DNA of 37,125 nucleotides from a virus. Of this stretch, positions 1,612 to 21,580 are shown in pieces. The position numbers and the translations under genes were made by a program. A model generated the notes under the pieces. It saw nothing but the letters and a program-made list of their open reading frames with translations. It ran no database searches and was not told the origin of the DNA. The stretch spans positions 1-37,125 of the IMG/VR virus record IMGVR_UViG_3300031463_000549; one strand, 5' to 3'. Within the stretch, counting starts at the first letter, position 1. Every line of letters begins with the position of its first letter.

Positions 1612-1625
1612 GTTAGCTTCTCCGG

Positions 1626-2156
1626 TCAAACAAAGCTATTGTTTTGCCATCTTTCCGTCTCAGCTGCGGTAGCAAAGTCGCTCATTCTCTTTTGGCACAG
1701 ATCTTCGGGCACCCCGAAGTATTCAATGATTTCACACAGAGGAAGATTCTCGACCTTGATGAGTTCTTCTTCCGGCATGAGGATATGGGCTGCGCAGCAG
1801 TCAGCATTATTCTCCTGTTGGCGCAACGATGACTTCTGCCATGAACAGAAGGTCAACTGATTGCCGCAATGCATGAGGTGATGCCCCAGTGCATGGGCTA
1901 TCAGGAACCGACGCTCAGTTATATCCAATTCCAGGGCGATTCCTATCCATCTTCCCTGTTTAACCTCCTTAACGGGTTCGATAAATGGCCAGGTGATACA
2001 TTCACATCCCTCAACACTGGCCAGCCACTCCATATCCAGCGGGAAACTCAGGGCAGGATGGCGCAAATGCACCTGTTTAGCTTTCTTTATGGCAAGAATG
2101 CTCAATTCGTCCTCCGGCCGGTATGCGCGTTTACTTCTGTTTTTCTTCCAGTTCAC
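1626..2156 (-). CDS. ImmA/IrrE-like metallopeptidase-family protein, probably inactive
   Basis: The 176 aa protein matches the ImmA/IrrE family, whose members cleave Xre-type repressors to induce mobile elements. The family zinc motif HExxH appears here as HALGH (residues 88-92). Both histidines are present but the catalytic glutamate is alanine (GCA codon at 1890-1892). The downstream family motif is kept as ENNAD followed by AAHILMP near residues 115-128. The gene overlaps the end of the repressor gene and precedes the integrase, the usual arrangement of a repressor and anti-repressor pair. Fold assignment is firm. Loss of proteolysis is inferred from the missing residue, so it may act as a binding protein or be a decayed regulator. 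Confidence 0.82.
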   Translation of the reverse strand: MNWKKNRSKRAYRPEDELSILAIKKAKQVHLRHPALSFPLDMEWLASVEGCECITWPFIEPVKEVKQGRWIGIALELDITERRFLIAHALGHHLMHCGNQLTFCSWQKSSLRQQENNADCCAAHILMPEEELIKVENLPLCEIIEYFGVPEDLCQKRMSDFATAAETERWQNNSFV

Positions 2157-2541
2157 GCCTGCGTTTACGTCTCTCTTCTTCCAGCGTGAACTTGATAAAA
2201 GCCTTGACCCTCTCCCTGGCCTCTCCTTCTGTCAGCCTGTCCACCTGGCGGAACATCAGTTCAAGCTCGGGGTCTTTGAGGTCCAGATCACCGACCCTCT
2301 CCCAGGGATAGCTATTCAACGTCCCGGCCTCAGCCGAGTATATATCAGCAACCTCAATGTCGAGATATTTGGACAAGCCGGCCACGATTTCACCAGCGGG
2401 CTGCTTGTTACGCCCATTTTCAATAGAGGTGATGTTCTCCATGCTGGTGCCGGCCAGCTTGGCCAGCTGCCTCTGCGTCATATTTGCACGAAGCCTTGCT
2501 TCCCTAATCAGCTGCCCCAGACTTATTGGCAAGGATTTCAC
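2131..2541 (-). CDS. Xre-family phage repressor
   Basis: A 136 aa protein with an N-terminal helix-turn-helix of the Cro/C1 type at about residues 9-66 (motifs MTQRQLAKLAG and ITSIENGR), then an acidic linker and a very basic C-terminal helix (RKRRRE). It is the likely lysogeny repressor, dimerising on dyad operators in the control region just upstream. The open frame begins at GTG 2541, but GAGGGTGA runs into that codon. A TTG at 2532 would have better ribosome-binding spacing and gives a protein three residues shorter. It overlaps the ImmA-like gene by 26 bases, suggesting translational coupling. No LexA-type autoprotease domain is present, which fits control through the ImmA-like partner. 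Confidence 0.88.
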   Translation of the reverse strand: MKSLPISLGQLIREARLRANMTQRQLAKLAGTSMENITSIENGRNKQPAGEIVAGLSKYLDIEVADIYSAEAGTLNSYPWERVGDLDLKDPELELMFRQVDRLTEGEARERVKAFIKFTLEEERRKRRRELEEKQK

Positions 2542-2597: not shown

Positions 2598-2664
2598 CAG
2601 GTTTTTGACCTGCCGAAATGAGCTGTTTTCAGCCGAATACAGATTGTATTTGAGCCTCCATCGT

Positions 2665-2679
2665 GGTGACAATCTCACC
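2665..2679. promoter_or_regulatory. Candidate repressor operator 2
   Basis: GGTGACAATCTCACC is a 15-bp dyad with arms GGTGA/TCACC, abutting the -35 (2680-2685) of the rightward promoter. It has the same length and end bases as operators 1 and 3. Confidence 0.55.
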
Positions 2680-2711
2680 TTGACAACATCAATATAGCAT
2701 AGTGATATTAT
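2680..2711 (+). promoter_or_regulatory. Rightward early promoter
   Basis: A perfect TTGACA at 2680-2685 precedes the early genes. The -10 is less clear: TGATAT at 2703 has 17-base spacing but poor sequence, while TATTAT at 2706-2711 has good sequence and a 20-base spacing. It lies between operators 2 and 3, as expected for a repressed early promoter. Confidence 0.5.
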
Positions 2712-2715
2712 AACT
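2701..2715. promoter_or_regulatory. Candidate repressor operator 3
   Basis: AGTGATATTATAACT is a 15-bp dyad, extendable to 19 bp as ATAGTGATA/TATAACTAT with one mismatch. It overlaps the -10 region of the rightward promoter and shares the RGTRAYA half-site. Confidence 0.6.
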
Positions 2716-2735
2716 ATACCACGGAGGACCGCAAC

Positions 2736-2939
2736 ATGAAAAGCAAACCGACAGTGGTTGGCAGAGATAAGGTTTCGATCAGGGTCCAGCTATCAAGGAA
2801 GGACTATGAGGATTTGTGCAAGGTAGCTGAAGATGACAGGACTGATCTTAGCAGCCTGATGAGGCGGGCTGCCGTCCGCTATTACCTGATAAACGGTGGC
2901 ATGAAAGGAGCACGGAGGTCTAAGCGTGAGCGGCATTAA
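2736..2939 (+). CDS. Small ribbon-helix-helix-like regulator
   Basis: First rightward early gene, 67 aa, with GGAGG about 9 bases before the ATG. Residues 10-50 have the pattern of a ribbon-helix-helix protein: a short strand (KVSIRVQLS) followed by two helices (YEDLCKVAEDD and DLSSLMRRAAVRYYL). The C-terminus is very basic. Its place as the first gene after the operators suggests a Cro-like or other early regulatory role. This is inference from fold and position, since such short proteins are hard to assign by eye. The next gene starts inside its last codons. Confidence 0.65.
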   Translation: MKSKPTVVGRDKVSIRVQLSRKDYEDLCKVAEDDRTDLSSLMRRAAVRYYLINGGMKGARRSKRERH

Positions 2940-3081
2940 GCTAAAGCCCCGCATTGAAGATCAACCAGAGATGACTCTGGATGCAGATCCGGCTGCGATG
3001 GGAAGGCTCAAGACGCTCGTGCAGCTGGCCATCACCATCGGCAGGCGAGAGGGATTGATCGGAAAAGAGGCATCTAAATGA
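2926..3081 (+). CDS. Small early protein of unknown function
   Basis: A 51 aa gene starting at GTG, with GGAGGT at 2914-2919 six bases upstream. It overlaps the end of the preceding gene by 14 bases and its stop codon is shared in an ATGA overlap with the next start (3078), a strong sign of coupled translation. The product has an acidic proline-containing first half and a probable amphipathic helix in the second half (LKTLVQLAITIGRREG). I recognise no family. Evidence for the gene is the ribosome-binding site and the coupling on both sides. Confidence 0.55.
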   Translation: MSGIKLKPRIEDQPEMTLDADPAAMGRLKTLVQLAITIGRREGLIGKEASK

Positions 3082-3266
3082 GCTTGAGGCCAACTACCAG
3101 GTGCAGGGAATACCGGGAAGGCCGCATCGGGCGTTACCGCTGGTACCTCTGCCGTCAATGTCATGCCAAGTTCAGAGTGTTTACGAGAGAGCCTCTACCT
3201 GAAAGAGAAAAGTTATGTAATAAATGTGCAGGAGGTCAGGATGTCCAAAGTATTAAGTGCACTTGA
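3078..3266 (+). CDS. Small zinc-finger-like protein
   Basis: A 62 aa basic protein with two cysteine pairs, CRQC near residue 25 and CNKC near residue 47, that could bind one zinc ion. An additional cysteine lies near each end. It starts in an ATGA overlap with the preceding gene and runs 26 bases into the next one. Such small zinc proteins are common in phage early operons and often bind nucleic acid, but I cannot name a family. The paired cysteines and coupled start support it as real. Confidence 0.55.
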   Translation: MSLRPTTRCREYREGRIGRYRWYLCRQCHAKFRVFTREPLPEREKLCNKCAGGQDVQSIKCT

Positions 3267-3819
3267 GAGCACTTCCAGGAATGGCAACAAATATATTGAA
3301 GTGGTCTGCGAGGGCGTTGAAAAGAAGATCATCGCCTTCAAGCCTTACAAGCCAGGCGATGATATCCCGGCCGACAAGCTGGAACTGAATGACCGGGGCG
3401 ATGCCTACATCATCAAATCTGACGGCAAAGGCGGCAAGAGCTACCAGCACAACGATGAGCTGATAGTCGCCCAGGTGGCCTACAAAGCTCTGGTCGACAT
3501 GGCTGTGGCCGGCAAGATCGATATGTTCGAGAAGAACGCCTACCGGCAGGAAGCTCTCACGGCACTGGGCACGCAGATGGCGCTCACCATCCAGAGCATA
3601 GCTGGATCGCTCAAAGGTAAGCCCAGTGACAGTCCAAAACATATTGTAAATGAGAAGCTGACTACAGTGGGACAGCTATTCACGCGGGCTAACGCCAGGT
3701 GGGACTTGTATCGTGCCGACGTGCTGAAAATTCTGGGCGTTTCAGACTCCAAAGAAATCACTGATCTGGATGCCGCCTGGAACAAAATTTCCGAGGCCAT
3801 GGAGCAGAAAGATGAATAG
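3241..3819 (+). CDS. Conserved early phage protein, possible OB-fold
   Basis: A 192 aa protein. The ATG at 3241 follows AGGAGGT by about 5 bases and is preferred over upstream in-frame starts that have no such signal. The first 60 residues are strand-rich (KYIEVVCEG and KKIIAFKPYKPGDDIP) and resemble a small OB-type or single-strand-binding fold. The remainder is helical, with an alanine-rich middle and an acidic C-terminus ending EQKDE. An acidic tail after an OB-like start is typical of single-strand DNA-binding proteins, so a role in early DNA replication or recombination is a reasonable guess. I do not recognise the family. Confidence 0.6.
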   Translation: MSKVLSALESTSRNGNKYIEVVCEGVEKKIIAFKPYKPGDDIPADKLELNDRGDAYIIKSDGKGGKSYQHNDELIVAQVAYKALVDMAVAGKIDMFEKNAYRQEALTALGTQMALTIQSIAGSLKGKPSDSPKHIVNEKLTTVGQLFTRANARWDLYRADVLKILGVSDSKEITDLDAAWNKISEAMEQKDE

Positions 3820-3967
3820 GCGGAATACGATGCAGACAACAAAGGAGGCGGACAATAACCGTCCCCTTTCAAAGGTTGCTACCAGAAGTGGACTCCCTGG
3901 TACAAAGGGTGGGTTTTCAAAACATACCATTGCGAATGCCACAGATAGCCATGGAGTTAAGAAATAG
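3812..3967 (+). CDS. Small ORF, possibly a duplicated leader of the BRO gene
   Basis: A 51 aa frame beginning at an ATG that overlaps the preceding stop (ATGAATAG). An internal ATG at 3830 lies in a context closely similar to the real start of the next gene: AGGNGNNATACGATGCA followed by ACAACAAAGG, compared with ATAACAAAGG. The first residues MQTTKE mirror MQITKE of the BRO protein at 3978. The rest is basic, glycine- and serine-rich and without recognisable motifs. It may be a short coupled gene or the remnant of a duplicated 5' end of the BRO gene. Confidence 0.35.
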   Translation: MNRRNTMQTTKEADNNRPLSKVATRSGLPGTKGGFSKHTIANATDSHGVKK

Positions 3968-3977
3968 GAGACATACG

Positions 3978-4844
3978 ATGCAAATAACAAAGGAACTGAC
4001 GGTTTTCAAGTTCAATGATCAGATAATCCGCAGAATACCTGGAACTAATGGCAAGATTCTTTATTGTGTCAATGACATCTGCGCTGCGATGGGTGTCGTC
4101 AATGTCGCCGATGTAATCAAGAGGCTCCAGAGCAAGGAGATAGATAATATCTATGACCCTGGCGCTAAGGAGATAGACAATATCTATGACCTCTGTAATA
4201 GCGACACCGATAATAACGATGTCGCTATTGGAGGCATCACGTGGATCGTTAGCCAAACCTCCGGCGGCGTACAGAAGATGGCCTATACGGATGAGGTCGG
4301 GTTGTATGACATCATCAGCAAATCCCGCAAGCCGCTGGCAAAAGTACTTTACCGCAAACTGATAGAGGCGGTGCCGGCCATGAGGGAGTCGACCGGCCGG
4401 TCTACCCCTGAGATTGCCTCGACAGATCAGGTAATCCTCGACACGCACAATATTGTCAAAGTCTTTGCATATAAAGTGGATGCACGGTTTAACCGCCTTG
4501 AACAAATGGTCTCTGTTATTCAGTCCAATCAGCAGCAAGAGGTCAAACTGCTTAAGGCAGGTACTCTGCCTGCGGTAAGTAACATTGATTGGCGCAGCAG
4601 GCTCAATAAGTACATAAGGAACATCTCCCGCAAATTCAACTGGCCGGAGTCCGATTGCTGGAACATGGTTTACTACGAGGACAAATATCGTAATCACCGC
4701 GATATCAAAGCCATAGCCAGGAATAGAGGATGCAGATCAATTCAAGTAGCCCAGGAAAATGGATGGTTACAGGATTTGTGTGCCATAGCTAAAGCCATTC
4801 TCTCGGGAGAGATCGTCAGCGTTTTCAAGCTGAACTTGGAGTAG
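3978..4844 (+). CDS. BRO-N domain antirepressor-like protein
   Basis: A 288 aa protein starting at the ATG after TAGGAG. The N-terminal 140 residues form a BRO-N domain: a strand-rich start, then GKILYCVNDICAAMGV, and the conserved region with DEVGLYDIISKSRKPLAKVLYRKLIEAVPAMR. BRO-N proteins in phages are DNA-binding and often serve as antirepressors. The domain is interrupted by a tandem repeat (KEIDNIYD twice). A short coiled coil (FNRLEQMVSVIQSNQQQEVKLLKAG) follows, then a C-terminal domain of about 85 residues (WRSRLNKYIRN and QVAQENGWLQDLCAIAKA) I cannot name. The modular plan fits phage Ant/KilA-type regulators. Confidence 0.83.
   Translation: MQITKELTVFKFNDQIIRRIPGTNGKILYCVNDICAAMGVVNVADVIKRLQSKEIDNIYDPGAKEIDNIYDLCNSDTDNNDVAIGGITWIVSQTSGGVQKMAYTDEVGLYDIISKSRKPLAKVLYRKLIEAVPAMRESTGRSTPEIASTDQVILDTHNIVKVFAYKVDARFNRLEQMVSVIQSNQQQEVKLLKAGTLPAVSNIDWRSRLNKYIRNISRKFNWPESDCWNMVYYEDKYRNHRDIKAIARNRGCRSIQVAQENGWLQDLCAIAKAILSGEIVSVFKLNLE
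4134..4199 (+). repeat. 33-bp tandem repeat inside the BRO gene
   Basis: Two units of 33 bases (4134-4166, 4167-4199). The first 24 or so bases are nearly identical (AAGGAGATAGAYAATATCTA, then TGAC), each encoding KEIDNIYD. The repeat keeps the reading frame and lies in a loop of the BRO-N domain. Confidence 0.85.
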
Positions 4845-9192: not shown

Positions 9193-10086
9193 ATGAATAC
9201 AAAATTGAAGATAACTGTACCTCCAATTAAGTGCCAAGGCATCAAGACAAAATTGATACCGTTTATCTTAGATTCGATAGATTGGAAAGGTAACGGTAAA
9301 TGGATTGAGCCGTTTTTAGGATCAGGAGTGGTGCTTTTCAATGTTAAGCCTAGGAAGGCTCTTGTCTCAGATACGAATGAGCATATAATAAGATTTTATC
9401 GAGATTTACAGGATGGGAGAATAAACGGGCTAGTCGTGCGAGAATATTTGGAGCATATGGGGAAAAAACTAAGTTCCGACGGAGAGGAATTCTACTATGC
9501 AACTAGGGATGAGTTCAATAAAAGCGGGTCTTCACTGGACTTATTATTCTTATCACGTTCGTGTTTTAATGGGATGATGAGATTCAGTTCTAAAGGTAAG
9601 TATAATGTCCCGTTTGGGCATAAGCCGGGGCGGTTCACAAAAGCATACATAACCAAAATAGTCAATCAAGTGGAGAAGGTCCGGGCAATAATGTATGAAA
9701 GGGATTGGGAATTCATATGTAGCGATTGGAAGGATACATTAGCAAAAGCCGATCATAATGACTTCGTTTATGTAGATCCCCCGTACATCGGACGGCATAC
9801 TGATTACTTCAATAAATGGCGAGATGAAGACTCATTTGAACTGGCAACTCACCTAAACAATCTCCACTGTGGCTTCGCTCTATCAATGTGGCTTGAGAAT
9901 CGCTATCGTAAAAATGAATATATTCAAAAGTACTTCAGCGATGCTGAAATCAAGACATTCAACCATTACTATCATGTTGGAGCCTCCGAAAATCAAAGAC
10001 ATGAAATGATAGAAGCACTGGTGATTAAAAAGGGATTCTCGCGTAATACTAAGATTGATAACCCCAACCAAAAACAACTTTTGTAA
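9193..10086 (+). CDS. EcoRV-type adenine-N6 DNA methyltransferase
   Basis: A 297 aa alpha-class (Dam/DpnM-like) DNA adenine methyltransferase. It is recognisable as an M.EcoRV homologue: the start PPIKCQGIKTKL, the AdoMet motif EPFLGSGVV (39-47), SRSCFNGMMRF (121-131), NVPFGHKPGRF, and the catalytic motif DPPYIGRH (195-202), then HYYHVGASE near the end. M.EcoRV modifies the first A of GATATC. It protects phage and lysogen DNA from the endonuclease encoded at 10448-11203. Start and stop touch the preceding small frame (TAAATG) and there is no clear Shine-Dalgarno sequence, so it may be translated by reinitiation. The gene is AT-rich relative to the structural genes. Confidence 0.93.
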   Translation: MNTKLKITVPPIKCQGIKTKLIPFILDSIDWKGNGKWIEPFLGSGVVLFNVKPRKALVSDTNEHIIRFYRDLQDGRINGLVVREYLEHMGKKLSSDGEEFYYATRDEFNKSGSSLDLLFLSRSCFNGMMRFSSKGKYNVPFGHKPGRFTKAYITKIVNQVEKVRAIMYERDWEFICSDWKDTLAKADHNDFVYVDPPYIGRHTDYFNKWRDEDSFELATHLNNLHCGFALSMWLENRYRKNEYIQKYFSDAEIKTFNHYYHVGASENQRHEMIEALVIKKGFSRNTKIDNPNQKQLL

Positions 10087-10182
10087 TACCTTGACATTCA
10101 GGTAGAGCAAGTCATATTTGCCTTAACCAATTGGATTCCTATGACAAGTATCTGATATACTCGAAATAATCAAACAAATACA

Positions 10183-10220
10183 AGCGATCAGTAATATGCA
10201 TAGCGATCAGTAATATGCAT
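10183..10220 (+). repeat. 19-bp perfect tandem repeat duplicating a start codon
   Basis: AGCGATCAGTAATATGCAT occurs twice without a gap (10183-10201, 10202-10220). Each copy carries the ATG of the next gene. In the first copy that ATG reads only four more codons before TAA, while the second copy holds the real start at 10215. Confidence 0.95.
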
Positions 10221-10451
10221 GAGGAGAAAGTATTAGTAGACTGCGGGTTATGTGGTGGAACAGGGAAATTCAAGCTGGGTACCGGCGCAACCCGAACATG
10301 TATTTCCTGCGATGGGAAAGGCAAATTACTTGTATCATCACTAGCAACCAAGTGCAAAAAGTGCCAGGGAACAGGTAGGATAGGTTGGCAGAGGAAGTGC
10401 GATGTTTGCGATCAAACTGGTTGGATAGGCGGTAAGAGAGTATCGAGCTAA
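10215..10451 (+). CDS. Free-standing DnaJ-type zinc-finger protein
   Basis: A 78 aa protein made almost wholly of four CxxCxGxG-like motifs: CGLCGGTG, CISCDGKG, CKKCQGTG and CDVCDQTG. This is the cysteine-rich module of DnaJ/Hsp40, which binds two zinc ions, but no J-domain or C-terminal substrate domain is present. It lies between the EcoRV-type methyltransferase (same strand) and endonuclease (opposite strand), and its last four bases overlap the endonuclease stop. Stand-alone modules of this kind occur in other small proteins, but a role beside this restriction system is unknown. It may assist folding, regulate, or merely be hitch-hiking. Confidence 0.85.
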   Translation: MHEEKVLVDCGLCGGTGKFKLGTGATRTCISCDGKGKLLVSSLATKCKKCQGTGRIGWQRKCDVCDQTGWIGGKRVSS

Positions 10452-11203
10452 GCTTTAACTCCAGTATTCTTTTTCCAACTTAAGTAGCCATCTAAATCAG
10501 TATATTTCCTTGGAGCATGCCAGTCGAAGTTCCTCCAGTAATCCTCAAATACCTCCTTACCTTTGTCCCCGAACTTTGTGAACACCCCCTTACCTTGTTT
10601 CAAGTCATTCAAGGAGTTTACAGATCCTATATTAGCTGTATTGCCACTACCAGGTTTATCTGAAGACAATTGCCACTTCTCGTGAACAAGAACTTCTACA
10701 TCATCTATAGCTGCTTTAACCTCGTGCAGTTTTTCAATCTTTGTTACTTCAGGTTTCTCGATGTCAGTAACTCGGCTATATATGTATCCTATTATCCAAT
10801 GCTCCCGATATTCCGTATATGGATAACTAATATTCTTTGTATATGGAGGGCGTATATATGCCGTATATGAACCAAGAGTAAAACCACCCCTATCTTCATC
10901 TCTACGAAATGTACTTTTAATGTCAATGGCTATCTTGTTGGGTATTTCACCTGGCAGTATCAGAGTGAGATCAGGATACACATTTTGTCTTTTTTCTATT
11001 TCCCATCTCTCTATATACGGTTCAACAGCCGGTATAATAATAGGGTAAGATACTAGCTCAAATATTTTAGAGATTAGTTTTGTATCATTCGAAATTGTGT
11101 ACAGTTGCCCTTTATCATCCACAACACCCTTAATGTGCCACTCAACACCGATTTCCTTAAAAGCGTTTATAATAATTGAGCGCAGATCAAAATCTTTGGC
11201 CAT
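10448..11203 (-). CDS. EcoRV-type type II restriction endonuclease
   Basis: A 251 aa protein clearly homologous to EcoRV, which cleaves GATATC in the centre. Active-site equivalents are all present: Glu49 in KIFELVSYPII, Asp78 in VYPDLTL, and Asp94/Lys96 in IAIDIKS. Further matches are GSYTAYIR, TKNISYP, EHWIIGYIYSRV, the recognition loop GSGNTAN (185-191; EcoRV has GSGNTTN), GKGVF and FEDYWRNF. Length is close to the 245 aa of EcoRV. It is transcribed toward the methyltransferase, so R and M are tail-to-tail with the DnaJ-type gene between. No frameshift or lost catalytic residue is seen, so it is probably active and specific for GATATC or a close relative. Confidence 0.93.
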   Translation of the reverse strand: MAKDFDLRSIIINAFKEIGVEWHIKGVVDDKGQLYTISNDTKLISKIFELVSYPIIIPAVEPYIERWEIEKRQNVYPDLTLILPGEIPNKIAIDIKSTFRRDEDRGGFTLGSYTAYIRPPYTKNISYPYTEYREHWIIGYIYSRVTDIEKPEVTKIEKLHEVKAAIDDVEVLVHEKWQLSSDKPGSGNTANIGSVNSLNDLKQGKGVFTKFGDKGKEVFEDYWRNFDWHAPRKYTDLDGYLSWKKNTGVKA

Positions 11204-11555
11204 ATAAATATCAGTCCGAATAATAAATAATTATATGTCGATTATCTCACGGCAGAGTTTTGTACGCAAACGCTCCATCTGGATTTATCGTGTTTGCAGT
11301 CTATAATGCTGGCTTGATGAATAATAATCCGCCCCAAGTTTATGAGATTGATGCTGTAATAATTAATGTGAGCCAAGTTTCCACGAAAGTATGGGAGGCT
11401 CAAGCTAACGCCTCAATCCCTATTGACATCACAGATACGAAATTAACGGGTTGACAAATACAAACGAACGTAAATATAATTGAGATAAGTTGGAAAAGTC
11501 CGCAGAGATGCGGGCTTTTTTATATTCACGTTTTATTTACTTTGGTAGTAACTAT
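11204..11555. other. AT-rich gap upstream of the endonuclease gene
   Basis: This 352-base stretch holds the likely promoter region of the minus-strand endonuclease and an intrinsic terminator at 11497. An open frame from about 11227 to 11454 on the plus strand has only a TTG start (11260) and no convincing ribosome-binding site. Its product contains IPIDITDTKLTG near the end and looks like a gene fragment. I do not call it as a gene. Confidence 0.5.
11497..11521 (+). terminator. Rho-independent terminator
   Basis: Arms AGTCCGCA (11497-11504) and TGCGGGCT (11509-11516) pair over eight positions with one G-T pair around a GAGA loop, followed by a run of T. On the other strand a shorter T-rich stretch follows the stem, so it may also end the gene at 11556. 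Confidence 0.85.
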
Positions 11556-12236
11556 TTATTCCTCCCAATGATTGAAAATGCCTGTGGTTTCAAGCAATTT
11601 GACGCCGGCCCATCTGCAAATAAAATATATAGCTAACGCGTCTGCCGGTGTATAACAATGCGCATCAGGCAAGATGTGTTCGACGGAGTGCTTGGATTTT
11701 CTGTACACGATCCAATTAAGCATATTCAGAAAATCAAGAAAGCTTGGTTCTAGGGTACTTCCGATAAATGCTCTGTGATTTAATAATATCCCCAATGAGG
11801 ATCTATCAGATTCGGGAATATTGAAACGATATTTTACTGAGTTCTCTATATGCAAGCATGAATCCAGAACAATACGGCGCGCATTCCAAAACAAATCACC
11901 GAAGCTAATCCACGCATAGACATACTGTATTGGCCGAAATAATGGCCGGAATTCTATTTTATAAGAGCCGGTTAACAGTTCACCCTCCTGTCGATTCACA
12001 TTGTGAAGACCGACTCCGCCTAATGATTGATCAATCGTAATTATTTGATGATATCCTTCCAATATATTCTTCTCAGTTGTTTCTGCCAATTTAATTATTT
12101 CCTGCGGTTGGACATTAAGGCCACTTTGATTCAACAAATCCTCTATATTTTGAGAAAGTGGTCTTTGAGAGAAGGCACTCTTTAACTTTGGCAATCTTTT
12201 TTTACAGAAGTTGCAAATAGAGAATATCTTCATCAT
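11556..12236 (-). CDS. Hypothetical protein in cargo block 1
   Basis: About 226 aa. The start is the ATG at 12236 (or the adjacent ATG at 12233) because GGAGG lies 4 to 7 bases upstream, whereas the longer frame to 12314 has no such signal. The protein begins with a short cysteine motif (CNFCKKR) and then shows mixed helices and strands: a QSLGGVGLHN segment, YAWISFGDLFWNARR, and a C-terminal YTPADALAIYFICRWAGVKLLE. I do not recognise the family. No membrane segment or signal peptide is evident. Low GC and opposite orientation mark it as cargo, and its neighbours make a defence or accessory role possible but unproven. Confidence 0.55.
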   Translation of the reverse strand: MMKIFSICNFCKKRLPKLKSAFSQRPLSQNIEDLLNQSGLNVQPQEIIKLAETTEKNILEGYHQIITIDQSLGGVGLHNVNRQEGELLTGSYKIEFRPLFRPIQYVYAWISFGDLFWNARRIVLDSCLHIENSVKYRFNIPESDRSSLGILLNHRAFIGSTLEPSFLDFLNMLNWIVYRKSKHSVEHILPDAHCYTPADALAIYFICRWAGVKLLETTGIFNHWEE

Positions 12237-12334
12237 CCTGCCTCCTAAAATATGTTCTACATTATTATAGCCCAAGATTAAGAGCCCCAATAGCTTTTCC
12301 ATAATAACACGCAATGGTTTAAAAACCTGGTGTC

Positions 12335-12871: not shown

Positions 12872-13564
12872 TTACGCTTCCAAATACTTTCGCTCCCCCT
12901 TCACCCAAGAAAAAAATAAATCGATGCGTCCGACTTTCTTACCATAAACAATGCTGTTCTCAGTTACATTATTTACACTGAACAAGGTTAAAAATTGCTT
13001 GTAATCGGAAAATGCCTGCGGATCATCACCAAAAGAATGTATGAGCACAAGCGCCACTGTCGCGTTAAATTTATCAGCTTCAATAACTGCACTCGCAGTC
13101 CTGTGTAGAAGTTGATATTTACAGGGTCCAAAATCAACCGACTTCAGTGATAATAAATTAAGCAGGTAATCCAGCCTAGTAATTTTCCCTGAGCTTTTAT
13201 TTGCCAGCCATTCATTTACGGTATCGCCAAATCCTTCTAACGCCTTACCTTCGACCACTATGGATACAAGTCTGCCATCACTCCTGGCCAATATAAAGAT
13301 GTCACTTTGAGATGGACGTCCTCCGACCGGTGGTAAAAAGGTTTTGTACTCGGGGAAGGCCATCAGCATTTTGATGTTTTGAAACGTATTGTTGCCCGAT
13401 GATTTGAATACTTTTAGTACCGAGTGAGGAAAATTCCTATTAGCAGAATGCCAGCAATAAGCTAGTGATTTTGCAGAATATCCAGTTTTCCAATGTTTAT
13501 GGGGTTCAGCAAGTAATGGTTTCCAATCTTCAGCCGACAATGCTGGTACAAAAAACACACTCAT
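12872..13564 (-). CDS. Probable PD-(D/E)XK-type nuclease (DUF6946-like)
   Basis: A 230 aa protein with GGAGG about 7 bases before the ATG. The region GGRPSQSDIFILAR (81-94), followed by LVSIVVEGKALEGFG (99-113), gives Asp88, Glu105 and Lys107. These fit the D...(D/E)xK core of restriction-endonuclease-like folds, with the GGxPSQxDI approach I associate with DUF6946. Downstream are KITRLDYLLNLL and VALVLIHSF, a typical core strand. It is on the opposite strand to the packaging genes and lies between HNH and the ParB-methyltransferase. A restriction or defence role, possibly paired with that methyltransferase, is inferred. The fold assignment is moderately sure. Confidence 0.6.
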   Translation of the reverse strand: MSVFFVPALSAEDWKPLLAEPHKHWKTGYSAKSLAYCWHSANRNFPHSVLKVFKSSGNNTFQNIKMLMAFPEYKTFLPPVGGRPSQSDIFILARSDGRLVSIVVEGKALEGFGDTVNEWLANKSSGKITRLDYLLNLLSLKSVDFGPCKYQLLHRTASAVIEADKFNATVALVLIHSFGDDPQAFSDYKQFLTLFSVNNVTENSIVYGKKVGRIDLFFSWVKGERKYLEA

Positions 13565-13653: not shown

Positions 13654-14859
13654 ATGAAGCTAAAAACCGTCAAAATAGCAGAGCTAAAACCGCATCCTAA
13701 GAACCCTCGCCAGCACCCTGACAGCGCCATCGCCAAATTGACCAGATCAATCCAGGAGTTCGGCTGGACCAACCCGGTGCTCGTTTCCAAGGATGGCGTT
13801 GTCCTGGCCGGGCATGCCAGGCTAAAGGCAGCGGAGAAGGCCGGCATCACCGATATACCCGCCATCTACCTTGATCTGGAGGGCGCCAAGGCCGATGCCT
13901 ATCTGATCGCAGACAACAAGACCCAGGACTTGACCGACTGGGATCTGCCGTTACTTAAAGACCTGCTGCAGGAACTGGACACCGGCGAGTTCGACCTGAC
14001 CGTTACAGGCTTCGATGAAGACGAGATCGAAGGCCTGATGACGCAATTACACGTGCCGGAGGAAGGATTGACCGATGACGATGAGATACCGGAGGATGTT
14101 GAATCTGTCTGCAAATCCGGTGATCTCTGGCAGCTGGACGTGCACAGGCTATTGTGCGGCGATTCAACTTCGATGAGCGATATCGAGAGGCTGACCAAAG
14201 GGGAGAAGGTCGATCTTGTCTTTACCGATCCGCCCTATAACGTGAACTGGGAATATCGCGGCAAGATGCACGGCGAGAGGTTCAACGGCATCCTCAATGA
14301 CAACCTCAACCCGGCGGAGTGGACCGAGTTCTGCGGCAAGTTCATCGCCAATATATCGGCCGTCTTGAAGGAAGGGCATGCCTATTATATATGCTCCGGC
14401 TGGAACTCCTTTGGAGAGTTCGAGAGAAACCTGAAGCAGAATAAATGCGAGTTCAGGCAGCTGATCGTCTGGGCCAAGAACCAGTTTGTGCTGGGCAAGT
14501 TCAACACGGATTACAACCGCCAGCACGAGCAGATACTCTACGGCTGGAAGGAGGGTAAGGCGCACCGCTGGTTCGGAGGGCATTCAGAGACCGACCTCTG
14601 GCAGATCGACAAGGTTCACAATACCAAGATGGTGCACAGCACCGAGAAGCCGGTAGGACTGGCAGAACGGGCCATCAAGAACAGTAGCCAGCTCAACGAT
14701 CTGGTCTTGGATCTATTTACAGGCTCGGGGTCGACGCTGATAGCCTGTGAGAAGATGGGGCGCAGGTTCTGCGGCCTGGAGCTCGACCCCAAGTACTGCG
14801 ATGTCATCATCAACCGCTGGCAGAACTTCACCGGCAAGCAGGCATCAAAGATTGAATAA
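13654..14859 (+). CDS. ParB-domain DNA methyltransferase fusion
   Basis: A 401 aa protein with an N-terminal ParB/Srx-like domain (PHPKNPRQHP, IQEFGWTNPVLV, GHARLKAA at 53-60, IADNKTQD), a short acidic linker, and a C-terminal beta-class N4/N6 DNA methyltransferase. The catalytic motif TDPPYNV is at 191-197 and the AdoMet motif LDLFTGSGSTLIACE lies near the end, so the order is IV then I. Such fusions are common in phages near terminase genes and modify phage DNA, often to escape host restriction. It may also couple modification to packaging. The ATG follows GGTGATCT at normal spacing. It ends opposite a RAMA-like reader on the other strand. Confidence 0.9.
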   Translation: MKLKTVKIAELKPHPKNPRQHPDSAIAKLTRSIQEFGWTNPVLVSKDGVVLAGHARLKAAEKAGITDIPAIYLDLEGAKADAYLIADNKTQDLTDWDLPLLKDLLQELDTGEFDLTVTGFDEDEIEGLMTQLHVPEEGLTDDDEIPEDVESVCKSGDLWQLDVHRLLCGDSTSMSDIERLTKGEKVDLVFTDPPYNVNWEYRGKMHGERFNGILNDNLNPAEWTEFCGKFIANISAVLKEGHAYYICSGWNSFGEFERNLKQNKCEFRQLIVWAKNQFVLGKFNTDYNRQHEQILYGWKEGKAHRWFGGHSETDLWQIDKVHNTKMVHSTEKPVGLAERAIKNSSQLNDLVLDLFTGSGSTLIACEKMGRRFCGLELDPKYCDVIINRWQNFTGKQASKIE

Positions 14860-15933: not shown

Positions 15934-17483
15934 GAAAGAATTTCAGCGAAGCACGCGCACGGAGGGCCGTCGAATTCATCCAGCGGCTCAGGCATACCAA
16001 GGGACAGTGGGCAGGGCAGAACTTCATCCTGCAGGACTGGCAGCGCGAGAAGATCATCCGCCCGTTGTTCGGCACGGTGAATCCAGACGGCAGCCGCCAG
16101 TACCGCACCTGTTATGTGGAGCTGCCGCGCAAGAACGGCAAGACGACTGTCGCCTCTGCTATCGCGCTCTACTTGCTTTATGCGGACAGCGAGGCCGGCT
16201 GCGAAATCTACAGTGCCGCCAACGACAGGCCCCAGGCCGCACTGGTCTTCAATGAGGCAGCAGCCATGGTACGACAGGAGCCTAATCTGTTTAACATCTC
16301 CAAGATCGTCGATAGCCAGAAGCGTATCGTATATCGCAGATTCAACTCCTTCTACTGCGCCATCTCTGCTGAGGCCTTCACCAAGTGGGGCATCAACGCC
16401 CACGGGATTATTTACGATGAATTGCACGCTGCGCCCGACCGCGATCTGTGGGACACCCTGACGACCTCGACCGGCTCACGGCGCCAGCCTCTGACACTGG
16501 TGATCACCACGGCGGGTTACGATAGAAATTCGATCTGCTGGGAGCAGCATGATTACGCCCTGAAAGTGCAGAACGGCATCATTGAGGACCCGACCTTTCT
16601 GCCGGTAATATTTTCCGCACCCGAGGATGCGGACTGGAAGGACGAGAGGGTCTGGGCAAAGTGCAATCCGGCGCTGGGCAGCTTCCGCAGCATCGGGGAG
16701 ATGCGCACTCTCTGCAACAAGGCGATGGAAACACCGGCCCTGGAGATGGCCTTCAGACGGCTGTATCTCAATCAGTGGGTGAACTCGGTCGAGCGCTGGC
16801 TGCCCATGGACGCCTGGGATGCCTGCAGCGGCAAGGTCGATGCGGAGAAATTAAACGGCCGCACCTGTTATGCGGGACTTGACCTGTCCGCCACGACCGA
16901 CCTCACCGCCCTGGCGCTGGTCTTCGCTGCCGATGATGGAAGCTACGATGTAATGATGCACTTCTGGATACCGGGCGATACCGCAGTGGACAAGGAGAAA
17001 AGGGACCGGGTGCCCTATCGAGCATGGGCTAATGAAGGCCTGATCACTCTCACACATGGCAACGTCATCGATTACCAGTACATTCGCCATACCCTGCATG
17101 AGCTGAGAGAGAAATACGACATTGCCGAGATCGCCTTTGACCGCTGGGGAGCGACCAAGCTGAGCCAGGATTTGACCGACGACGGCTTCCTGATGGTGCC
17201 CTTCGGCCAGGGCTTCGCCTCCATGAGCGCTCCTACCAAGGAATTGATGAACCTGGTGCTGAGCAAGAAGATCAGGCACGGCGGGCATCCTATTTTGAGA
17301 TGGAACGCTGACAACCTCGTCGTGCGCATGGACCCGGCCGGCAACCTCAAGCCTGACAAGGAGAAATCGACCCAAAAGATAGACGGCATGGTGGCGCTCA
17401 TCATGGCCATCGACCGGGCCAGCCGGCACAGCAACCTGATCGATACATCGATCTATGAAACACAGGGACTCACAGTCATATGA
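15930..17483 (+). CDS. terL: Terminase large subunit
   Basis: A 517 aa packaging motor of the Terminase_1/HK97-like group. The ATPase half has Walker A PRKNGKT (66-72), an adenine-binding QDWQREKIIRPLFG, and Walker B GIIYDELH (159-166), with the coupling motif VITTAG. The nuclease half begins with YAGLDLSATTDLTALAL near residue 313, whose first Asp is a metal ligand, followed by FDRWGATKL and KKIRHGGHPILRW. Length is normal for the family. It is coupled by four-base overlaps to both neighbours (ATGA at each junction). Confidence 0.95.
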   Translation: MRKNFSEARARRAVEFIQRLRHTKGQWAGQNFILQDWQREKIIRPLFGTVNPDGSRQYRTCYVELPRKNGKTTVASAIALYLLYADSEAGCEIYSAANDRPQAALVFNEAAAMVRQEPNLFNISKIVDSQKRIVYRRFNSFYCAISAEAFTKWGINAHGIIYDELHAAPDRDLWDTLTTSTGSRRQPLTLVITTAGYDRNSICWEQHDYALKVQNGIIEDPTFLPVIFSAPEDADWKDERVWAKCNPALGSFRSIGEMRTLCNKAMETPALEMAFRRLYLNQWVNSVERWLPMDAWDACSGKVDAEKLNGRTCYAGLDLSATTDLTALALVFAADDGSYDVMMHFWIPGDTAVDKEKRDRVPYRAWANEGLITLTHGNVIDYQYIRHTLHELREKYDIAEIAFDRWGATKLSQDLTDDGFLMVPFGQGFASMSAPTKELMNLVLSKKIRHGGHPILRWNADNLVVRMDPAGNLKPDKEKSTQKIDGMVALIMAIDRASRHSNLIDTSIYETQGLTVI

Positions 17484-18709
17484 AGATACCGTTCTTAAAG
17501 AAGCTGATAGGTAAGACAACGGGCAATTCCCTCAGCCGGGTGGATGACCCTTTAAACCTGTTCTGGCGAAGGAGCAACACAGGAACCAATGTCACGGAGA
17601 CAACTGCCCTCACCACCGTGGCCGTTTATGCCTGCGTTCGCATCCTGTCTGAGACGCTGGCATCGCTCCCTTTAATACTCTACAAGCGCCTGGGACGCGG
17701 AAAAGAAAGGGCAACCGAGCATCCTCTTTACCAGCTACTGCACGATGTGCCCAATCCTGAGATGAACAGCTTTACCTTCCGCGAGACGCTGATGGCACAT
17801 CTGGTTACCTGGGGCAACGCCTATGCCGAGATTGAATGGGACAACTACACAAAAGTTAAGGCGCTCTGGCCACTGCGGCCTGACCGTATGCAGGTCTGGC
17901 GCGAGAACGGCGAGATAGTCTATAAATATCTTTTACCTAACTCGGCCGGTATAGCAGTGCTGCCAGCCTACCGCGTCTGGCATATCCCGGGCCTGGGCTT
18001 TGATGGTCTGGTTGGCTATTCTCCGATCACTCTGGCCAGAGAAGCAATCGGTTTGTCTTTGGCCACGGAGGAGTTCGGGGCCCGGTTCTTCAGCAACGGC
18101 GCCGCTCCCGGTGGAGTGCTGGAGCATCCCGCCAAGTTATCGAAGGAAGCGCAGGACAACCTGAGAAAGTCCTGGAACGAGATGCACGCTGGTCTGTCCA
18201 ACCAGCATCGCATCGCCATCCTGGAGGAGGGCATGAAGTGGAGCAAGGTCGGCATGCCGCTTAACGACGCGCAGTTCCTGGACACGCGCAAGTTCCAGCG
18301 CAATGAGATAGCGTCGTTCTTCCACATCCCGCCGCATATGATCGGCGATCTTGAGCGGGCTACCTTCTCCAACATTGAGGAGCAGGCACTGGAATTCGTG
18401 GTCTACACCATGCGTCCCTGGCTGGTCCGCTGGGAGCAGTCGATCAACCAGAAGCTGCTCAACCCTGATGAGAGGGCAGACTATTTTGCCGAATTCTTAG
18501 TCGATGGATTACTCAGAGGGAATATTCAGGCACGCTATCAGGCTTATGCCACGGGCCGTCAATGGGGATGGTTGTCGGCAAATGATATCAGAGAGTTGGA
18601 AAACCAGAACCCTCTGCCTAGTAATGAAGGCGATATTTATTTGAACCCTTTAAATATGGTACCGGCTTTGCAATTATTAAGAACAAACGAACAAAAGGAG
18701 TATAAGTGA
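17480..18709 (+). CDS. Portal protein (HK97 family)
   Basis: A 409 aa portal of the HK97 (phage_portal) family. Identifying segments are ALTTVAVYACVRILSETLASLPL (divided about residues 41-63), HPLYQLLHDVPNPEMNSF, MAHLVTWGNAYAEI, the helix with GLSLATEEFGARFFSNGAAPGGVL, and FHIPPHMIGDLERATFSNIEEQ in the crown-forming half. The dodecameric portal sits at the capsid vertex, binds terminase and passes DNA. Normally the prohead protease follows directly. Here about 2.1 kb of AT-rich cargo is inserted after the portal stop. Confidence 0.95.
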   Translation: MKIPFLKKLIGKTTGNSLSRVDDPLNLFWRRSNTGTNVTETTALTTVAVYACVRILSETLASLPLILYKRLGRGKERATEHPLYQLLHDVPNPEMNSFTFRETLMAHLVTWGNAYAEIEWDNYTKVKALWPLRPDRMQVWRENGEIVYKYLLPNSAGIAVLPAYRVWHIPGLGFDGLVGYSPITLAREAIGLSLATEEFGARFFSNGAAPGGVLEHPAKLSKEAQDNLRKSWNEMHAGLSNQHRIAILEEGMKWSKVGMPLNDAQFLDTRKFQRNEIASFFHIPPHMIGDLERATFSNIEEQALEFVVYTMRPWLVRWEQSINQKLLNPDERADYFAEFLVDGLLRGNIQARYQAYATGRQWGWLSANDIRELENQNPLPSNEGDIYLNPLNMVPALQLLRTNEQKEYK

Positions 18710-18752
18710 CCCTGCTAGGCTGAAAATGGATCAATTGATACGGAATCGAAAC

Positions 18753-18819
18753 ACACCACAAAAGTTGGCTCTCAGGTTCAATATGTTCGCTACCAAGTGC
18801 ATTTTCTATTTTGTGGTGT
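18753..18819. repeat. 11-bp inverted repeat after the portal gene
   Basis: ACACCACAAAA (18753-18763) and TTTTGTGGTGT (18809-18819) are perfect inverted copies 45 bases apart, about 70 bases upstream of the cargo promoter. They could form a stem, end the head transcript, or be a relic of the insertion event. Also nearby, TACTAGAAC occurs at 18862 and 18882, exactly 20 bases apart. Confidence 0.7.
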
Positions 18820-18890
18820 AGTGACCAGCATATCATAACTAACGATATGTTGGAAGCACTATACTAGAACGCAAAATCCTCTACTAGAAC

Positions 18891-18919
18891 TTCACATTTA
18901 TTGACTGCTCATCTATAAT
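18891..18919 (+). promoter_or_regulatory. Cargo-block promoter
   Basis: TTCACA (18891-18896), a 17-base spacer and a perfect TATAAT (18914-18919). It is the best promoter on the plus strand of the window. The direct repeat TACTAGAAC (18862 and 18882) ends right at the -35, so an activator or repressor could bind two turns of helix there. Confidence 0.75.
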
Positions 18920-18965
18920 GTTTTTGTTCGAAATAATAAAGGCAGATGGAAAGGAAGAGGTTTTA

Positions 18966-19670
18966 ATGCAGCATTGGTATCAGTGTCCTTATTGCGGTAA
19001 CAATGTAGCCTATGGTCAGCCGGGATGTTCCCGTTGTGGCAATAAATTACAGTGGCAACAACCACAACCAGTACAGCCTTCACACTATCAGTCAACACCA
19101 CAGTACCAGCAGCAGTATCAAAAGCCAGACCAAGCTCCTCAACAATTCCAACAACAGCCTCCTCGGTTTCCGCAAGAACCCGAAAAACCAAAGTCAAACA
19201 CAGGGAAAATTGTATTTGGCATTATTGCAGGTGGATTACTTCTATGTATAGGTTCTTGCGCCATTTGTATAAACTCCGGTTCGAAATCGTCCACGTCTAA
19301 CCCATCTCAAACTCCAACTACGTCCAGTCCAAATGTTCCTAAGACTCCGACAGCCCAGGCAATTCAAGTGAGTGCTGGCGCTTTATACAAAGCCTATGAA
19401 GCTAACCAAGTGGCAGCTGATGTGCAATACGAAGGTAAAATCCTATTGGTCACTGGCGTCGTTAGTTCAATTGGTAAAGATATATTGAGCAACCCCTATG
19501 TTGTTATCGGCGATGGTGGGGAATATTCACTCGTGGGAGTGCAGTGTTTCTTTGACAAAGGAGCTGAGTCAGAATTAGCCAAATTGTCCAAGGGGCAAAC
19601 TGTGACAATACAAGGCAAACAGAGCGGTTATTTTATGAATGTTACTTTATCAGGATGTTCGCTCAAATAA
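18966..19670 (+). CDS. Zinc-ribbon membrane protein with tRNA_anti-like OB domain
   Basis: A 234 aa protein. The ATG at 18966 is chosen over 18918 because AGGAAGAGG lies upstream and because it matches the paralogue at 19754. Residues 7-24 form a zinc ribbon (CPYC and CSRC). A glutamine/proline/tyrosine-rich linker of about 50 residues follows, then one membrane segment (82-101, VFGIIAGGLLLCIGSCAICI) and a serine/threonine/proline stretch. The outside domain (about 130-234; SAGALYKAYEANQVAAD and GKILLVTGVVSSIGKDI) resembles the tRNA_anti-like OB-fold family. The zinc ribbon is probably cytoplasmic. Expressed from the cargo promoter, it may alter the lysogen envelope. Function unknown. Confidence 0.72.
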   Translation: MQHWYQCPYCGNNVAYGQPGCSRCGNKLQWQQPQPVQPSHYQSTPQYQQQYQKPDQAPQQFQQQPPRFPQEPEKPKSNTGKIVFGIIAGGLLLCIGSCAICINSGSKSSTSNPSQTPTTSSPNVPKTPTAQAIQVSAGALYKAYEANQVAADVQYEGKILLVTGVVSSIGKDILSNPYVVIGDGGEYSLVGVQCFFDKGAESELAKLSKGQTVTIQGKQSGYFMNVTLSGCSLK

Positions 19671-19746
19671 CTTCGCAGATAACCGTCATGATAATTATTC
19701 GACCGTAGTGAAGATATGCCAGAGGAAGTGGTCATGATAGACAGGG

Positions 19747-19852
19747 GGTTTTAATGCAGCATTGGTATCAGTGTCCTTATTGCGGTAACAATGTAGCCTA
19801 TGGTCAGCCGGGATGTTCCCGTTGTGGCAATGGATTACAGTGGCAACAACCA
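19747..19852 (+). repeat. Duplicated 5' gene segment (copy of 18959-19064)
   Basis: About 105 bases beginning GGTTTTAATGCAGCATTGG are repeated with only three or so differences. The first 85 are identical, including all third-codon positions. The copy spans the region just before the start codon and the zinc-ribbon coding part. This indicates recent duplication or gene conversion rather than old paralogy. Confidence 0.9.
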
Positions 19853-20305
19853 CAGCCACCACCTCCAACTTCACAGTATCAGTCACCACCACAGTATCAA
19901 CAGCAGTTTCAGCAACCATTCCAAGCTCCGCAACAACAGACATATCAAAATCATATAAAAACCAGAGGAAACAGTGGTCTTAAAATAGCTGCGTTAATAT
20001 TAGGCATTATAGGTGGACTTGCCGGTTTTATGGGAGCAATCTTTGCATTAGTCGTTGGTGGGATAGGAAGCGCTTTTAAAGCCAGTGGCGCAGAAACTGT
20101 AGTGGGGTTGGGCTGGGCAGCTATTCCAATTTCGCTTGTTGGAATAATTGGAGGAGCGATGGCTATGGCAAAGCCTAAAATAGCAGGCATCATTATGCTT
20201 CTAAGTGGAATAGCCGGATTCATTGCCATCTCAGGGGGTTATCTTTTGGGAGGTCCACTGTTAATAGTGGGAGGCGTCCTCGCACTAGTAGCCTCTAGAA
20301 AATGA
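19754..20305 (+). CDS. Paralogous zinc-ribbon membrane protein with C-terminal helices
   Basis: A 183 aa protein whose first 35 residues are almost identical to those of the preceding gene: the same CPYC/CSRC ribbon, followed by a similar glutamine/proline-rich linker. The second half differs: about four hydrophobic segments between residues 75 and 183 (IAALILGIIGGLAGFMGAI, AAIPISLVGIIGGAMAM, IAGIIMLLSGIAGFIAI and LLGGPLLIVGGVLALVA), like small DUF4064-type membrane proteins. The shared ribbon with different membrane domains suggests that the ribbon is a common partner-binding tag. It is likely cotranscribed with 18966 and ended by the terminator at 20816. Confidence 0.7.
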   Translation: MQHWYQCPYCGNNVAYGQPGCSRCGNGLQWQQPQPPPPTSQYQSPPQYQQQFQQPFQAPQQQTYQNHIKTRGNSGLKIAALILGIIGGLAGFMGAIFALVVGGIGSAFKASGAETVVGLGWAAIPISLVGIIGGAMAMAKPKIAGIIMLLSGIAGFIAISGGYLLGGPLLIVGGVLALVASRK

Positions 20306-20397
20306 TCTATGCTGTCTATTAACTGCTTTGTTATTCGTTCTTGTCCGACAATCGTTGTTAACATCTAGATACTGCTTCCTAAATGGCCAGATTAGGT

Positions 20398-20796
20398 CTA
20401 TGCGTAATGCTCGCTCTTTAGGGTGACTTTCTTGCATTTTGGGCACCTCAAGATCTCAACTTCATCACCCTGAAGTATCATGCGGCTACTACCACAGGAA
20501 GGACATTTTGGGGTTGTCCCATCTTTGTAATCATCCTTGGGTTCCCAACGGCCACTCCATACCAGCGACGGTATGTCCTCGGGATGCATAAACTCCACTA
20601 TTCTGACTACACTGTTAGTGGCACAATCGGTGCATTACATATTTGCGCTAAGCCCAAATATATTGGCACTGTCAATATCAACCGGATGCATCAATTGGAC
20701 AAAGTCACCTTTCTCCTTGCGAGAGAATTCATTAGAGCCATCTGTATAAACAGTATGGTCGCAGACATCACATTTGTGTAAATAAAGGTCAGCCAT
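20398..20796 (-). pseudogene. Zinc-ribbon protein gene interrupted by an in-frame TAA
   Basis: From ATG 20796 to TAG 20398 the frame is continuous (133 codons) except for one TAA at 20635-20637, codon 54. The first part carries CDVC (9-12) and ends just before CTDC. The second part carries CPSC and CPKC. If the stop were a sense codon the protein would have two complete zinc ribbons (CDVC with CTDC, CPSC with CPKC), and the stop lies within the first. A GTG at 20598 could start the second half alone. No ribosome-binding site is obvious before 20796. It is most simply a nonsense-mutated gene. Confidence 0.65.
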
Positions 20797-20815
20797 ATCT
20801 TATAAACATACCACG

Positions 20816-20842
20816 AAGGCGCTCGATGTGAGCGCCTTTTTT
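20816..20842 (+). terminator. Strong terminator just before the prohead protease
   Basis: AAGGCGCTC (20816-20824) and GAGCGCCTT (20830-20838) form a perfect 9-bp stem with a 5-base loop and a T-run to 20842. The protease ribosome-binding site (GGAGG, 20846-20850) begins four bases later. It would end transcripts from the cargo block and also hinder late transcription into the capsid genes. Confidence 0.9.
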
Positions 20843-20854
20843 ATTGGAGGCCAC

Positions 20855-21580
20855 ATGGAACACAAATCGATAAAAATACAGTTCAAAGAGGCACAGGAAG
20901 GGGCTTTTACCGCCCAGATCGCCACGCTCAACGTGGTTGACAGCGACGGCGACCTCACTAAATCCGGCGCCTTCCCTACCGGTAAGGAACTCCTCATCTC
21001 TGCCTATCAGCACGGCTCATGGCAAGGCGCCCTCCCTGTGGGCAAGGCTGTAATCAAAGAGATCGGCGATGCCGTGATCGCGGAAGGCCAGTTCAATCTT
21101 AATTCCGCTTCCGGCCGTGAGCACTATGAGGCGGTCAAATTCACCGGCAGCCTGCAGGAATGGAGCTACGGCTTCTGGCCGGTCAAATGGAACATGGAGG
21201 AGATCGACGGCAAACAGGTGAGGATCCTGGAATCTGTCGACCCTGTTGAGATATCGCCAGTATTAAAGGGCGCCGGCGTAGGAACGGCTACCCTGGCTAT
21301 CAAAGAAGACGACGGTGCTACCTTCGCTCAGCATTTCGAGACGGCGCTTGCTGCTGTCGTTGGAGTGGTTGAGCGCTCAAAATCGCTTGCCGATCTTAGG
21401 CGCAAGGAAGGCCGCACCTTATCCCAGGCTAACCGCAATCGGATTAAAGACCTGCAGTCTCAGTTAAATACCCTGTCTGCCGAATTGCAGACGCTACTGG
21501 ACGAGACTGATACGGCCAGCAAATCCGTAGTCGGCAGCCTGTACCTGGCATTTTCCAGGACATTACGCAATCTGAATTAA
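20855..21580 (+). CDS. Prohead serine protease (HK97 family)
   Basis: A 241 aa protein. The ATG at 20855 (MEHKS) follows GGAGG by four bases and is preferred over the upstream in-frame ATG at 20828, which lies inside the terminator. The protease core includes AQIATLNVVDSDGDLTKSGAF, the histidine region ISAYQHGSW, and the serine region GSLQEWSYGFWPVKW, then SVDPVEISPVLKGAG, typical of the HK97 gp4-like S78 family. The C-terminal 70 residues are helical (RRKEGRTLSQANRNRIKDLQ), as in proteases with a scaffold-like tail. It matures the capsid and clips the capsid protein N-terminus. Confidence 0.93.
   Translation: MEHKSIKIQFKEAQEGAFTAQIATLNVVDSDGDLTKSGAFPTGKELLISAYQHGSWQGALPVGKAVIKEIGDAVIAEGQFNLNSASGREHYEAVKFTGSLQEWSYGFWPVKWNMEEIDGKQVRILESVDPVEISPVLKGAGVGTATLAIKEDDGATFAQHFETALAAVVGVVERSKSLADLRRKEGRTLSQANRNRIKDLQSQLNTLSAELQTLLDETDTASKSVVGSLYLAFSRTLRNLN

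Follow-up and report, generated by a model that had tools for sequence, protein, structure and literature searches.

Why does the head gene cluster of a temperate phage harbour a 2,145-bp insert between the stop codon of the portal gene (18709) and the ATG of the prohead protease gene (20855)? The window analysed here is the whole 37,125-bp IMG/VR record IMGVR_UViG_3300031463_000549, which is a temperate phage by gene content: the lysogeny module at the left end is followed by an antirepressor gene, and the right half contains terminase, portal, protease, capsid and tail genes recognised by Pfam and PHROGs (Table 1). The closest terminase relatives belong to phages of Clostridia (about 54% identity); a search of the portal against bacterial genomes returned no match. 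A previous sequence-only reading proposed that the insert is a moron, expressed from the silent prophage and encoding two paralogous membrane proteins acting, for instance, in superinfection exclusion. The results presented below make it moderately probable that the insert is a lysogen-expressed superinfection-exclusion cassette of this kind, located in a hot spot between portal and protease.

Table 1. Features of the window discussed in the text
Feature	Position	Strand	Characteristics
Lysogeny module	1-2541		Left end; serine integrase, ImmA-type protease, HTH repressor
D12-class adenine methylase	9193-10086	+	Type II restriction-modification pair
EcoRV-type endonuclease	10448-11203	-	PF09233, E 6e-61; solved EcoRV, E 1.3e-49
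Orphan cargo-like gene	11556-12314	-	AT-rich DNA before methylase/terminase genes
DUF6946 protein, cargo-like	12872-13564	-	PF22187, E 1.3e-73; AT-rich DNA before methylase/terminase genes
ParB-N domain fused to N6/N4 DNA methylase	13654-14859	+	Upstream of terminase genes
Portal gene	17480-18709	+	PF04860, E 1.3e-124; left edge of variable slot
Inverted repeat in leader	18753-18819		Perfect, 11 nt, read directly: ACACCACAAAA (18753-18763) / TTTTGTGGTGT (18809-18819)
Direct repeat	18859-18890	+	CTATACTAGAAC / CTCTACTAGAAC, 20 bp apart; abuts -35
Sigma-70-type promoter	18891-18919	+	TTCACA-17-TATAAT; 11/12 consensus bases
Duplicated 5' module, first copy	18959-19070	+	Zinc ribbon and start of linker
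ZnOB (gene 1), 234 aa	18966-19670	+	Zinc ribbon, Gln/Pro-rich linker, TM, OB domain; Sie2009-related
Duplicated 5' module, second copy	19747-19858	+	97% identical to first copy (112 nt)
ZnTM (gene 2), 183 aa	19754-20305	+	Zinc-ribbon/Gln-rich module, then four-helix DUF4064 membrane domain
Zinc-finger ORFs, 66 aa (20398-20598) and 53 aa (20635-20796)	20398-20796	-	One frame, in-frame TAA between
Intrinsic terminator	20815-20839	+	-17.2 kcal/mol, z -5.0; right edge of slot
Prohead protease gene	20855-21580	+	PF04586, E 3.5e-6; phrog_80, E 3.5e-21

The Portal–Protease Slot and Its Cargo

The GC content of the insert is 43.9% versus 55.5% in the late backbone, and its third-position GC is 0.33–0.37 as against 0.64–0.80. 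The slot was compared among relatives whose portal is at least 88% identical in protein. In the close relatives L009, L014, L015 and L022, the gap between portal and protease measures only 230–300 bp compared with 2.1 kb in the window, which bears out the description of the insert as AT-rich DNA splitting the usual gene order; the relatives part from the window sequence at the last ~10 codons of the portal gene. No clear gene is present in the approximately 240 bp of the L009 slot. The slot contains a plus-strand ORF of 74 aa without a terminator in L014 and L015, a minus-strand membrane ORF of 56 aa in L022, a single minus-strand ORF of 232 aa in L012, and a different zinc-ribbon, Gln-rich, membrane-anchored gene accompanied by minus-strand ORFs in L013. 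Since close relatives hold other cargo or nearly none in the same place, the portal–protease slot is a cargo hot spot in this phage clade, and this junction is a place to seek more prophage cargo. Minus-strand genes such as those found in the slot of relatives cannot be expressed by the rightward late operon.

Some details of the relatives' slots are worth recording. The near-empty slot of L009 (5653-5893) has short repeats (GTGTTGCAAGTGTTGCAAAACCGG and similar) in place of a clear gene. The membrane gene of L013 (slot 2653-4059) encodes an unassigned exported domain, and its ribbon is 40% identical to that of the window over 30 aa; a minus-strand ORF in the same slot has a GIY-YIG-like stretch, for which Pfam gave no match.

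The same insert is present in contigs of five metagenomes (3300028168, 3300028162, 3300013090, 3300022556 and 3300025279). Comparison of the window with L003 gives an identity of 99.6% for the insert as opposed to 85.7% for the portal and 88.3% for the terminase; for L005, the corresponding values are 97.5%, 82.2% and 85.8%. Because the identity of the insert is far above that of the portal and terminase, the cargo seems to have passed from one backbone to another independently of them. The proposal that the insert is a moron is supported by its own promoter and terminator, its deviant GC content, the fact that close relatives lack it or have other cargo in its place, and the minus-strand genes that occupy the slot elsewhere.

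Promoter, Leader Repeats and Terminator

The near-consensus promoter and the terminator, both named in the sequence-only reading, were confirmed at the sequence level (Table 1). Under an order-1 Markov model of the leader, the chance of a promoter match this good in its 256 nt is about 0.6% (0.006), and about 0.5 matches of this quality are expected in the whole window. Both hexamers are identical in all relatives that bear the insert, as is the 11-nt inverted repeat of the leader; the direct-repeat core ACTAGAAC is also invariant in them, and the direct repeat is a candidate pair of sites for a regulator. Downstream, a hairpin and T-run are found at the place of the terminator in L009, L012, L013 and L022, which carry other cargo or none, with different stems and loops. 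The terminator is therefore a feature of the slot rather than of this particular insert.

Two Membrane Genes with a Common 5' Module

In ZnOB, the zinc ribbon (aa 1–30) and the linker are followed by a TM helix (aa 79–97) and an OB domain (aa 130–234). The latter matches PF12869 with an E-value of 4.9e-24, and the protein matches phrog_8545 ("superinfection exclusion Sie-like") with an E-value of 4.5e-21. The OB domain was modelled with a pLDDT of about 97, and the best solved match was the Klebsiella OB lipoprotein 3f1z (Z 13.6, rmsd 3.2, 108 residues aligned), annotated only as a "putative nucleic acid-binding lipoprotein"; the OB domain filled the match list of the PDB fold searches, which are informative on this part of ZnOB alone. 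Translation probably starts at ATG 18966, since the -10 element overlaps the ATG at 18918 and the context of 18966 resembles that of the gene 2 start; the longer version beginning at 18918, inside the -10, was rejected. Assignment of ZnOB to PD-T4-6 (PADLOC, E 7.8e-6) was also rejected as a composition effect, the match covering residues 29–132, a mostly low-complexity Gln/Pro/Ser-rich part, and matches to GltJ and PknB (NCBIfam) were dismissed on the same grounds.

Scans of viral and bacterial contigs revealed about 90 further OB loci. Leaving L130, L131 and L136–L138 out of the tally, a TM helix is predicted ahead of the OB domain in nearly all of these relatives, and a CxxC-CxxC zinc ribbon precedes the TM helix in over a dozen. 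CI-type repressors (phrog_4) make up at least 11 of the 51 scanned genes located directly upstream of OB relatives, and a repressor has the same position in phages IFTN9 and Tuc2009; ZnOB itself lies far from the lysogeny module of the window (18966 versus 1-2541). One protein (L135, 5686-6444) contains a zinc ribbon together with several predicted TM helices and an OB domain, and may unite in one chain functions that the window divides between two genes.

The assignment of ZnTM to DUF4064 relies on a match to PF13273 (E 4.4e-7) whose score of 30.5 bits is just under the curated cut-off of 32.1, a match to phrog_6780 (E 2.2e-21), 44% identity to an annotated DUF4064 protein of Paenibacillus phage Bohemia, and four helices predicted for the membrane domain in the structure model. 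The zinc ribbon is absent from the DUF4064 proteins of 39 further viral loci. Among 50 neighbouring genes at 18 of these loci, 16 belong to phrog_806, i.e., DUF4352 lipoproteins, 12 to one transcriptional-regulator family, 4 to an integrase family and 3 to a metalloprotease family. Prophage lysogeny modules repeatedly contain pairs of DUF4064 and DUF4352-lipoprotein genes (L195–L233) next to CI, ImmA and integrase genes, and no description of them was found in the literature searched.

Such pairs resemble ZnOB and ZnTM in that a prophage encodes a polytopic DUF4064 protein and, next to it, an exported protein with a membrane anchor; however, their partner is a lipoprotein instead of an OB protein, zinc ribbons are missing, and they are located at repressor, ImmA and integrase genes rather than head genes. 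An exported anchored protein beside a DUF4064 protein thus appears to be a recurring prophage pair. The combination of OB and DUF4064 genes, for which a search in other genomes had been suggested, was found by tblastn and HMM in all loci gathered only in this clade. The lipoprotein encoded beside the DUF4064 gene in L231 was considered as an OB bridge between the two kinds of pair and discarded (profile comparison probability of 0.6%).

The sequence-only reading described two related, paralogous zinc-ribbon membrane genes. This holds for the N-terminal zinc-ribbon/Gln-rich module, while the C-terminal parts, a PF12869 OB domain and DUF4064, are unrelated, and the genes are not paralogous throughout. 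Since the 5' ends are 97% identical over 112 nt and the C-terminal halves unrelated, the identity is best explained by a module that was duplicated or converted recently and not by full paralogy of the genes. At codon 3 (CAT versus CAC), the window and its relatives differ in both copies at once, a joint change at a single site that hints at conversion.

In the relatives bearing the insert, the Gln-rich linkers vary in length only by in-frame changes. Compared with L005, 13 of the 29 changes in ZnOB and ZnTM are synonymous (binomial p 0.007, from 29 changes only and with transition bias ignored), and 52 synonymous and 15 nonsynonymous changes were counted in the protease gene. Both cassette genes accordingly show mild constraint, and their frames are open across several metagenome assemblies. 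The minus-strand zinc-finger ORFs, which the sequence-only reading had overlooked, showed one synonymous and seven nonsynonymous changes relative to L005, with no sign of purifying selection. Because the TAA between them is present in all copies of the insert and no constraint is detectable, the simplest reading is that they are probably a decayed gene.

Relationship to Known Exclusion Proteins

Relatives of the OB domain include orf2 of phages Tuc2009, LC3, r1t and 50101, annotated as "Sie protein" or "superinfection exclusion Sie-like". Over 102 aa, the OB part of ZnOB shares 36% of its residues with the Tuc2009/LC3 Sie protein (E 8e-9); the OB family profile matched the same protein over the TM and OB regions with an E-value of 2.7e-26, which is inflated by the presence of this protein among the 56 of the profile. 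The sie gene of LC3 is 100% identical to that of Tuc2009, and L. lactis 3107 overexpressing sieLC3 was completely resistant to every phage tested except TP901-1, which was reduced by 2 logs (PMC7693887). Expression of Sie2009 blocks DNA injection (PMC10714293). Like ZnOB, Sie2009/SieLC3 is encoded by temperate phages and has an N-terminal membrane anchor, a linker and an OB domain (phrog_8545, PF12869). It differs in being a single small protein that lacks a zinc ribbon and acts alone, whereas ZnOB has a zinc-ribbon/Gln-rich tail and a DUF4064 partner, and in the location of its gene between repressor and integrase instead of the head cluster. The statement that no system of this form had been described is not supported, Sie2009/SieLC3 being a precedent that the sequence-only reading did not name.

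Other systems are less similar. HK97 gp15, cited in PMC4737114 as the membrane product of a moron that keeps phage DNA from entering, can be likened by description only, and is a single gene as opposed to the two-gene cassette found here. Ltp of TP-J34 is a prophage-encoded, surface-exposed exclusion lipoprotein (PMC3952083); the ZnOB model matches BFVD protein A0A8S5U313, named "Host cell surface-exposed lipoprotein", and a search for the Ltp domain in the window proteins with Pfam and PHROGs gave no match. The cassette is not of the two-component SieF7/2AB type, composed of a membrane protein and a zinc-metalloprotease-like partner, the partner here belonging to DUF4064; a metalloprotease match was found in the window, but it is ImmA-like (1626-2156) and lies 17 kb from the cassette.

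Proposed Function and Alternative Explanations

Since one of its genes is related to a lactococcal-phage protein proven to exclude other phages, the cassette is probably a shield given to the host by the dormant phage. The suggestion of superinfection exclusion gains support from this homology and from the lysogeny-module contexts of relatives of both genes. The promoter would drive expression in the dormant prophage, with the terminator stopping its transcripts ahead of the head genes. With its N-terminus inside, ZnOB is predicted to expose the zinc ribbon to the cytoplasm and the OB domain to the outside of the membrane, ZnTM would span the membrane four times, and the near-identical zinc-ribbon/Gln-rich modules could join both proteins in one membrane complex. 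As with Sie2009, this complex might halt DNA injection by incoming phages and leave adsorption intact. The cassette links the proven exclusion protein Sie2009 to a broad anchored-OB family often found behind repressors in temperate phages, and makes DUF4064 proteins, both here and beside DUF4352 lipoproteins, candidate partners. The modest OB identity to the tested Sie protein (about 36%), the nature of Sie2009 as a lone, ribbon-less protein of the lysogeny module and the confinement of the OB and DUF4064 pair to this clade among the loci gathered count against exclusion, and the weakest link is the part played by ZnTM, because the DUF4064 family is without known function. A rather doubtful extension is a modular exclusion platform, in which one zinc-ribbon/Gln-rich cytoplasmic tail assembles interchangeable membrane effectors into one complex: the Sie2009-like OB protein, the DUF4064 protein and the third exported domain in the slot of L013. 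The polytopic protein could then be the base in the membrane, with the OB protein acting outside as sensor or plug.

Alternatively, the genes could serve lysogenic conversion of the host envelope, providing stress tolerance or a cell-surface change with no action on incoming phages. In the libraries searched, no role is assigned to DUF4064, DUF4352 or zinc-ribbon membrane proteins, and the annotation of 3f1z is equally unspecific; however, exclusion is proven for the characterised OB relative, OB relatives cluster behind repressors, and we consider an envelope function unlikely. An abortive-infection effector that senses infection and disturbs the membrane, as reported for the S. aureus prophage protein PdpSau, is less probable still. 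PdpSau halts phage DNA replication with changes in membrane potential (PMC10127798) and, likened by description, it is also membrane-anchored and prophage-encoded with a reported OB fold, but its C-terminal domain is cytoplasmic, while the OB domain of ZnOB is predicted outside the membrane.

That the insert is selfish or neutral cargo, decaying in a recombination hot spot with no current function, would agree with the broken, unconstrained minus-strand ORFs and with the variable slot content of close relatives. The open and mildly constrained frames of ZnOB and ZnTM and the strictly in-frame linker changes argue against it, making this explanation very improbable. The position of the genes within the head cluster and on the same strand could also indicate that they are late genes for head or lysis components, transcribed as part of the structural operon, which the sequence-only reading had named as a finding that would contradict a moron. 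This possibility is largely refuted and barely credible: L009, L012, L014 and L022 lack the cargo and keep the adjoining head genes, the insert has a promoter and terminator of its own, and relatives of ZnOB and ZnTM are located in lysogeny modules.

Other Cargo-Like Genes in the Window

The restriction-modification pair at 9193-11203 is likely a second defence cargo of the same phage. Two more cargo-like genes, one of them an orphan, precede the methylase and terminase genes (Table 1). Between the endonuclease and the orphan gene, an AT-rich stretch contains a perfect 12/12 sigma-70 consensus, TTGACA-18-TATAAT (11451-11480, plus strand), followed near 11500-11520 by a GC stem and T-run, possibly producing a short transcript.
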